A DNA stretch of 64,000 nt from assembly GCF_900100695.1 (NCBI RefSeq), contig NZ_FNCF01000004.1, forward strand, positions 434,001 to 498,000, given 5' to 3'. The notes beneath the pieces are model-generated. The model saw only the letters and a list, made by a program, of their open reading frames with translations, was not told where the DNA came from and did not search any database. Both the position numbers and the translations under genes were made by a program. This stretch comes from Klenkia brasiliensis. GTDB lineage: Bacteria; Actinomycetota; Actinomycetes; Mycobacteriales; Geodermatophilaceae. Numbering within the stretch: position 1 is the stretch's first letter; every line of letters starts with the position of its first letter. Of this stretch, positions 7,876-9,863 are shown one piece after another.

Positions 7876-7920
7876 TGGTGTCCAGTGGGGGCTGGTGGGT
7901 TAGGGTGGCGCGCGATGGGG
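7876..7920 (+). promoter_or_regulatory. MraZ operator: five TGG direct repeats at 10-bp spacing
   Basis: TGGTG, TGGGG, TGGGT, TGGCG and TGGGG begin at 7876, 7886, 7896, 7906 and 7916, exactly one helical turn apart. MraZ proteins bind TGGGN repeats separated by 5 nt upstream of their own gene in several bacteria. The array overlaps the mraZ -10 (TAGGGT, 7901-7906) and the expected start point, as expected for autorepression. Confidence 0.82.
7901..7906 (+). promoter_or_regulatory. mraZ / dcw cluster -10 element
   Basis: TAGGGT, preceded by T (TTAGGGT), lies inside the TGG repeat array. Transcription from about 7912 would give a leader of roughly 70 nt before the mraZ GTG. Confidence 0.7.
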
Positions 7921-7982
7921 ACGCAGGGCCTACAGGGGGACCTGCGGGGCCCCCGGGAAGCAGAGGTGGGGGTGGTGGACCG

Positions 7983-8417
7983 GTGTTCCTGGGCAGCCAC
8001 TCCCTGCGCCTGGACGAGAAGGGCCGCCTGGCCCTCCCCGTGCGCTTCCGCGACCTGGTCACCGGCGGCGTCGTGCTGACCAAGGGCCAGGAGCGCTGCG
8101 TCTACGGCCTGACCCACGAGCGCGTCGCCGAGGTGCAGCGCGCCCGGGCCGCCGCGATGCCCGCCGACACCGGCCGCGCCCGCGCCCTCAACCGCCTGGG
8201 GTTCGGCTCGATGGTCGAGCTCGAGCCCGACAAGGCCGGCCGCATCACGCTGCCGGCGCTGCTGCGCGAGTACGCCGGCCTCGACCGCGACGTCGTGGTC
8301 GTCGGCGTCGACACCCGCTTCGAGATCTGGGACGCCGCCGCCTGGGACGCCTACGTCGCCGAGCAGGAGGCCGCCTACGCGGAGAGCGAGAGCGAGGGGA
8401 TGCCGACCCTGTCCTGA
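7983..8417 (+). CDS. mraZ: Transcriptional regulator MraZ
   Basis: A 144-residue protein, the normal MraZ length. It has two AbrB-like SpoVT/MraZ repeats with the conserved DExGR...P motif: SLRLDEKGRLALPVRFRD (about 7-24) and ELEPDKAGRITLPALLREYAGL in the second half. MraZ forms a ring that binds TGG-type direct repeats in its own promoter and controls the dcw cluster. The GTG at 7983 is chosen because FLGSHSLRLDEKGR begins the family alignment there; GGTGGTGG just upstream is a passable ribosome site. It opens the division and cell-wall cluster, with its operator at 7876-7920 and a 474-nt leader separating it from rsmH. Confidence 0.95.
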   Translation: MFLGSHSLRLDEKGRLALPVRFRDLVTGGVVLTKGQERCVYGLTHERVAEVQRARAAAMPADTGRARALNRLGFGSMVELEPDKAGRITLPALLREYAGLDRDVVVVGVDTRFEIWDAAAWDAYVAEQEAAYAESESEGMPTLS

Positions 8418-8445
8418 CCGCCCCCGACCCGCGGGCGCCCCCCGT

Positions 8446-8470
8446 CCGAGCCCACTTCCCCGGGGCTCGG
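8446..8470 (+). ncRNA. mraW-type RNA hairpin, copy 1
   Basis: A perfect 8-bp stem (CCGAGCCC at 8446-8453 with GGGCTCGG at 8463-8470) closes the 9-nt loop ACUUCCCCG. The loop sequence and the position before rsmH (mraW) fit the actinobacterial mraW RNA motif as I recall it. Confidence 0.72.
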
Positions 8471-8484
8471 GTGCACCGGAACCG

Positions 8485-8507
8485 CCAGCCGACTTCCCCG
8501 CGGCTGG
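8485..8507 (+). ncRNA. mraW-type RNA hairpin, copy 2
   Basis: A perfect 7-bp stem (CCAGCCG at 8485-8491 with CGGCTGG at 8501-8507) closes exactly the same 9-nt loop, ACUUCCCCG. The stem sequence differs from copy 1 while the loop is identical, as expected for a selected RNA loop. Confidence 0.72.
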
Positions 8508-8591
8508 ACCCGGCCGGGACGCCCCACCCCAGCACCACCCCGGCTCCACCCCGCACCACCGGCTCCACCCCGCTCCACCCCGCACCACCGG

Positions 8592-8635
8592 CGGGGCCCA
8601 GGCCGGCGACCTTCCCCGTCGCCGGACGGGCCCCG
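8592..8635 (+). ncRNA. mraW-type RNA hairpin, copy 3 (two-part stem)
   Basis: The inner 8-bp stem (8603-8610 with 8618-8625) closes the loop CUUCCCC. After a small internal loop, an outer 8-bp stem (CGGGGCCC 8592-8599 with 8628-8635) extends it. It has the same loop core as copies 1 and 2. Confidence 0.72.
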
Positions 8636-8770
8636 CGGTGGGGGCGAAGCAGCCAGCACCGCCGCCCCGGGCGCGTCGACCCGGACCCCCAGCACCTCCC
8701 GGACCCGGGCACCACCCGGCCCGGCCGAACCCCACCAGCACCACGAGTCACATCCGCACCACCGCGCGCG

Positions 8771-8891: not shown

Positions 8892-9863
8892 ATGAGCGAC
8901 CAGCAGCCCGCGGTGCACGTCCCGGTCCTGCTCGACCGCGTCACCGAGCTGCTCGGCCCCGCCTGCGCCGCCGACGGCGCCGTGCTGGTCGACTGCACCC
9001 TCGGCCTGGCCGGGCACTCCCTCGCCCTCCTCGACGCCCACCCCGGCCTGCGGCTGGTCGGCCTGGACCGCGACCCCGACGCCCGCGCCGAGGCCACCCG
9101 CCGGATCGCCGCCGCCGGCCACGCCGACCGCGCCACCGTCGTCCCCGCCGTCTTCGACGAGCTGCCCGAGGTCCTCGACGAGCTGGGGCTGGACGAGGTG
9201 CACGCGGTCCTCGCCGACCTCGGCGTCTCCTCGCTGCAGCTGGACCGCCCCGACCGCGGCTTCAGCTACGCCCACGACGCGCCGCTGGACATGCGGATGG
9301 ACCCCTCCGGCCCGCGCACCGCCGCCGACGTCGTGAACACCTACTCCCGCGGCGAGCTCACCCGCGTGCTCAAGGTCTACGGCGAGGAGCGCTTCGCCGG
9401 CCGGATCGCGGCCGCCATCGAGCGGGAGCGCGCCCGCGAGCCCTTCACCACCACCGGCCGGCTCGCCGAGCTGGTCCGCGACGCCATCCCCGCCGCCACC
9501 CGCCGCACCGGCGGCCACCCCGCCAAGCGCGCCTTCCAGGCGCTGCGCATCGAGGTCAACGACGAGCTGGGCGTGCTGACCCGGCTGCTCCCCGCGGCTC
9601 TGGACGCCCTCGCCGTCGGCGGCCGCATCGCCGTCATCACCTTCCACTCCCTGGAGGACCGGATCGTGAAGCAGGCCCTGGCGCTGGGCGCCACCGACAC
9701 CACCCCGCCGGGCATGCCACAGCCGCTGCCGGAGCACGCCCCGGTGCTGCGGCTGCTCACCCGCGGCGGCGAGGCGCCGGCCGACGCCGAGACCGAGGAC
9801 AACCCGCGCGCGGCGTCGGCCCGGGTGCGGGCCGCCGAGCGGATCCGGCGGGCCGACCGGTGA
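8892..9863 (+). CDS. rsmH: 16S rRNA (cytosine(1402)-N(4))-methyltransferase
   Basis: A 323-residue RsmH (MraW). It transfers a methyl group from AdoMet to N4 of C1402 in the 16S rRNA decoding centre. Seen directly: HVPVLLDRV at the N-terminus, motif I as [44 protein letters not shown], and [16 protein letters not shown] near the C-terminus, all diagnostic. ATG 8892 follows GGAGGAGG with 6-nt spacing; an upstream in-frame extension is leader. Its stop overlaps ftsL (GTGA). The upstream hairpin array may regulate its expression. Confidence 0.96.

Follow-up and report, generated by a model that had tools for sequence, protein, structure and literature searches.

The window analysed here, a stretch of 64,000 nucleotides from Klenkia brasiliensis, carries mraZ (7983..8417, + strand, GTG start, 144 aa, aligned with its relatives) and rsmH, also called mraW (8892..9863, + strand, ATG start), with an ftsL-like ORF and an ftsI-like gene for a penicillin-binding protein 3′ of rsmH, both named by inspection. 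Upstream from mraZ, four (G/A)TGG(G/C) repeats, one every 10 nt, lie at 7885..7919 (+ strand), with TAGGGT, a −10-like element, between them; judged by the established MraZ-box spacing, these repeats are likely MraZ boxes that overlap the promoter of mraZ. No sigma-70 consensus promoter was found in the stretch around the mraZ-rsmH gap, and no intrinsic terminator (GC hairpin and U run) between 7700 and 8950. At the place of the region just ahead of the mraZ GTG (7962-7983), other Geodermatophilaceae (L011, L024, L036) carry GGAGGACxGATG, a strong ribosome-binding site with an ATG. The mraZ GTG follows some 17 nt downstream in another frame, which may mean an overlapping upstream ORF or translational coupling.

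The gap between mraZ and rsmH contains CTTCCCC three times on the + strand, at 8455-8461, 8493-8499 and 8611-8617, each copy being the loop of a perfect hairpin, and the three stems all differ. H1 (8443..8473, + strand, core 8446-8470) reads CCGAGCCC-ACUUCCCCG-GGGCUCGG, an 8 bp stem that extends to 11 bp if G-U pairs are counted. H2, 38 nt from H1 (8485..8507, + strand), reads CCAGCCG-ACUUCCCCG-CGGCUGG, with 7 bp. The third hairpin, H3, has rsmH as the nearest gene downstream. Its inner hairpin (8603-8625, + strand) reads CCGGCGAC-CUUCCCC-GUCGCCGG, with 8 bp, and with its outer helix it spans 8581..8646 (+ strand, z −3.7). The loop strings are thus ACUUCCCCG for H1 and H2 and CUUCCCC for H3, as written in the preliminary description, and its observation of three such hairpins before rsmH is confirmed. 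By itself CTTCCCC is about as frequent in the window as expected (7 copies against 6.8). Among 2000 dinucleotide shuffles of the gap, two hairpins sharing a heptamer arose in 9, and three in none. All three hairpins are kept in other Klenkia and, with altered stems, across Geodermatophilaceae. One same-genus genome has an RsmH that is 89% identical. Between H2 and H3 runs a C-rich linker (8508..8580, + strand) of 63% C and 18% G in which CACCCC recurs, possibly a Rho-entry-like stretch, and few parts of the window are as C-skewed as the gap.

The preliminary description had pointed to the mraW RNA motif, usually a single hairpin, described by Weinberg et al. in 2010 (PMC2864571) and held in Rfam as RF01746. 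An Rfam search of the window at Rfam's own cut-offs gave no match. At a permissive threshold, each of the three hairpins matched RF01746 better than any other family, at 22.5 (H3), 19.0 and 14.6 bits for a gathering cut-off of 50, so that the proposed covariance search falls short only in the formal sense of this cut-off. R1, a covariance model trained on 17 inner hairpins that all came from families other than Geodermatophilaceae, did find the three of them (H1 25.8, H2 19.8 and H3 19.8 bits). Of 396 genomes of the phylum, no more than 22 reach the RF01746 cut-off, which thus shuts out most syntenic homologues; since these score below it, the Rfam model should be rebuilt. The likeness to mraW RNA lies in the position between mraZ and rsmH, a GC-rich stem, for H3 a probable nested outer helix, and the hairpin-borne (A)CUUCCCC loop, which occurs three times in the Klenkia gap. 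The differences are scores far below the gathering cut-off, an outermost helix (P1, GGUCUCC/GGGGACC) missing from the window, a replaced H3 inner stem, and two added hairpins with unrelated stems that have neither the P1 nor the P2 outer helix. By position it is H3 that is the homologue: elsewhere in Geodermatophilaceae its stem is the canonical CCUGRCGC/GYGCCAGG, scoring 41-43 bits in many of them, and most Klenkia now have CCGGCGAC/GUCGCCGG instead, while the outer helix displays, by inspection, compensatory changes on both sides within the family. We identify H3 as the divergent homologue of mraW RNA, with H1 and H2 as extra copies. The suspected kinship is supported by the R1 matches and by conserved synteny, and the Klenkia feature is a tripled, divergent form of mraW RNA. 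To our knowledge, this RNA has been listed since 2010 with no function given.

Conservation was then followed in relatives. In about 55 Geodermatophilaceae genomes each gap holds three or four hairpins; outside this family, in the rest of the same taxonomic order, the gap usually holds one CUUCCCC hairpin. A script found the hairpin in 160 of 162 mraZ-rsmH gaps, the two exceptions being L196, where it lies outside the called gap, and Glycomyces, whose gap is only 7 nt long. All named genomes in which mraZ adjoins rsmH (Streptosporangiales, Micrococcales, Nocardioides, Corynebacterium, Rhodococcus, Micromonospora and others) carry it except Glycomyces, and so do all of the 19 further families whose stretch includes rsmH. 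None of the weak matches in other classes adjoins rsmH, and further matches in the Klenkia genome itself have E values above 0.3 and none is at an rsmH gene; to judge from these searches, the element is confined to Actinomycetes. The loop is thus near-universal in the class, most of whose genomes are missed at the Rfam threshold, and its letters are invariant whereas stems differ, even within a single genome. In the P3 stem, every pair covaries above 3′-shuffles (150 distinct sequences, fixed registers), a control that ignores relatedness. The preliminary description was right to see a selected RNA element here. On the + strand, G-U pairs are far commoner than A-C, outside pair 4. At this fourth pair from the loop, the canonical P3 has a conserved A-C mismatch (e.g. 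L015, L018, L078), present in 39 of 150 sequences outside Geodermatophilaceae and in 27 of 37 Geodermatophilaceae H3, which might respond to protonation or serve in recognition.

Multiple hairpins are not restricted to Klenkia. Besides the 3-4 copies of Geodermatophilaceae, where the first hairpin spacing is 32-40 nt (mostly 36), three hairpins were counted in G100, and two in G073, G091, Rhodococcus/Prescottella, Citricoccus, Nocardioides and the family f114, where the pair is spaced 46 nt apart and the stems are not alike. On a tree of mraZ and RsmH built without f114, the single/multiple state changes 9 times. We conclude that multi-hairpin arrays arose repeatedly, in at least six lineages, often with a spacing of about 36-46 nt. 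A second CUUCCCC also occurs 21-26 nt downstream with no stem of its own in many Streptomycetaceae, where outside core Streptomyces such a single-stranded copy is often added, and in some Nocardioides/Streptosporangiales-like lineages. Given this single-stranded location, it seems to be the letters, rather than one fold, that are kept.

Streptomycetaceae are informative about MraZ, which the preliminary description had named as a possible binder. Several genera of this family have lost mraZ. Outside core Streptomyces, CUUCCCC is kept in 35 of 35 mraZ-less genomes, and it is kept in 36 of 36 mraZ-bearing Streptomycetaceae. No MraZ box (GTGGG repeat) is present in the hairpins either. The loop therefore does not serve MraZ, and as it persists with or without mraZ, its partner must be common to most of the class. 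MraZ or the mraZ mRNA as partner had also been suggested by Streptomyces, where mraZ and the loop are both lost, but six other mraZ-less genera keep the loop. In core Streptomyces, the heptamer was found in 3 of 18 genomes and at the canonical place only in L220, whereas the outer helix GGCCUCC..GGGGACC is still present in many; this lineage thus gave up the interaction. Core Streptomyces can grow vegetatively without cell division. The vestige itself, about 100 nt before rsmH in L204-L219 and L245, consists in many of them of the outer helix with UCCCCUUC as a remnant, and UUUU, UUCC and similar strings stand in place of the CUUCCCC loop.

A sequence that the loop could pair with was looked for in cis. 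No conserved GGGGRRG complement was found from about 400 nt upstream to 900 nt downstream of the rsmH start, and none complementary to the loop in the mraZ leader, the gap or early rsmH. Pairing with a GGGAAG of the mraZ leader is particular to Klenkia and is not conserved. A pseudoknot of UCCCC with the GGGGA of the P1 strand was rejected: in L071, L073 and L074, P1 is changed to GGATGCC/GGCATCC, and the loop is kept without GGGGA, as it is in Geodermatophilaceae. Ribosomal RNA was a further candidate, with GGGGAAGU near position 190 of the 23S rRNA in three genera (L330-L335; G005, G118, G455), a perfect complement of ACUUCCCC; by sequence, the site falls within a helix. In shuffled rRNAs the 7-mer turns up in 64-70% of draws and the 8-mer in 18-23%; the match is at chance level, and pairing with rRNA was discarded. 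The 14-contig assembly G000 gave no 16S or 23S match, so that its rRNA operons appear to be missing from it. With no conserved complement, an excluded pseudoknot and a 23S match at chance level, a trans-acting protein is favoured; the lack of a pairing partner is the one ground on which we infer that it is a protein.

A near-fixed loop on varying stems, in three copies in Klenkia, points to a partner that reads the letters and regulates cell-division genes. Our preferred reading, to which we give a probability of roughly 0.48, is that of a leader RNA showing CUUCCCC to a trans-acting factor, likely a protein, that controls the rsmH/dcw operon. The mraZ-rsmH gap would be the cis-acting RNA leader of this operon, and would present as recognition site one to four single-stranded CUUCCCC copies, mostly at the tip of a hairpin. 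The factor would most likely be a sequence-specific RNA-binding protein, for instance a pyrimidine binder of the KH or cold-shock type, although we know of no protein that binds CUUCCCC. It would bind while RNA polymerase or a ribosome moves into rsmH from mraZ, or from a promoter ahead of the leader, and once bound would set the expression of rsmH and the division genes downstream. Binding would be what multiplies with the copies, extra ones as in Klenkia giving higher avidity or cooperativity; the earlier suggestion that the tripled array is a multi-site platform fits the data. A broader and more tentative proposal is that one class-wide actinomycete regulator reads CUUCCCC in dcw leader RNA, and that lineages tune its grip through one to four hairpins, gained repeatedly and lost in core Streptomyces. 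Against a leader stands the fact that core Streptomyces manages without the loop. In C. glutamicum the motif region was seen transcribed, which speaks for a leader, yet a transcription start maps inside the motif (PMC3890552), and in C. diphtheriae the motif is upstream of the rsmH start; as these starts lie in or after the motif, part of the rsmH mRNA would be without it.

The chief rival to a leader read by a protein is C-rich RNA-RNA pairing, in which the loops are UCCC-type seeds for G-rich ribosome-binding sites, in trans or far along the operon, and the copies are redundant. Seed pairing of this type is known for LhrC, RsaE, RNAIII and 6C/B11. The LhrC sRNAs of Listeria share the anatomy, each RNA displaying three redundant CU-rich UCCC sites on loops and on a single-stranded part, but are free small RNAs with known mRNA targets, whereas the Klenkia element is an intergenic operon region with a longer, fixed heptamer (PMC4132741). 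In the mycobacterial 6C/B11 sRNA, also actinobacterial, two C-rich hairpin loops pair with G tracts at ribosome-binding sites and either one is enough; these loops are runs of C, in a stand-alone sRNA at an unrelated locus (PMC10470900). CUUCCCC itself complements GGGGARG, a Shine-Dalgarno-like string found at some mraZ starts. However, the mraZ leader, the gap and the first part of rsmH hold no conserved complement, the loop is kept in mraZ-less genomes, and seven letters fixed over the class are beyond the needs of a plain UCCC seed, which makes pairing rather unlikely. Still less probable is transcription attenuation or RNA processing, with the C-rich, G-poor gap serving as a Rho loading site and the hairpins modulating termination or cleavage of transcripts between mraZ and rsmH. 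At 0.21, the C-skew of the gap is higher than in 99.8% of the windows of this size within the 64 kb, and the linker composition and the Geodermatophilaceae mean skew (0.26) go in the same direction. Yet the skew is about 0 elsewhere (order 0.05, class 0.02) with the loop still kept, there is no intrinsic terminator, and a rut site does not require an invariant heptamer. The C-rich linker, special to Geodermatophilaceae, may add Rho sensitivity there.

A DNA operator, in which a transcription factor would recognise the inverted repeats close to a promoter of rsmH, would account for the perfect palindromic arms and for the start inside the motif in C. glutamicum (PMC3890552). We consider it improbable, as the arms have three distinct sequences in one genome and change in a compensatory manner over the class, the conserved part is the asymmetric centre, the excess of + strand G-U over A-C is large outside pair 4, and MraZ is excluded as loop binder. 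Autogenous control by RsmH, which the preliminary description had also mentioned, appears the most improbable of all: the loop would mimic the decoding-site strand of 16S rRNA (ACCGCCCGUC around C1402). The element directly precedes rsmH, and CUUCCCCG briefly resembles the 16S CCGCCCG. Only a short string is alike, a universal 16S site contrasts with an element confined to Actinomycetes, and core Streptomyces retains RsmH with the loop lost.

For the leader that we prefer, a loop that is fixed, convergently multiplied, MraZ-independent and dispensable in core Streptomyces leads to two testable questions: what binds CUUCCCC, and does hairpin copy number scale the control of the cell-division operon. 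Mycobacterium and Corynebacterium have the same leader ahead of essential division genes. The GGA hairpin arrays of RsmY/Z, bound by CsrA/RsmA (PMC4132741), likewise combine a constant loop, variable stems and multivalent protein binding, a likeness in the way of working only, with other letters and other proteins.
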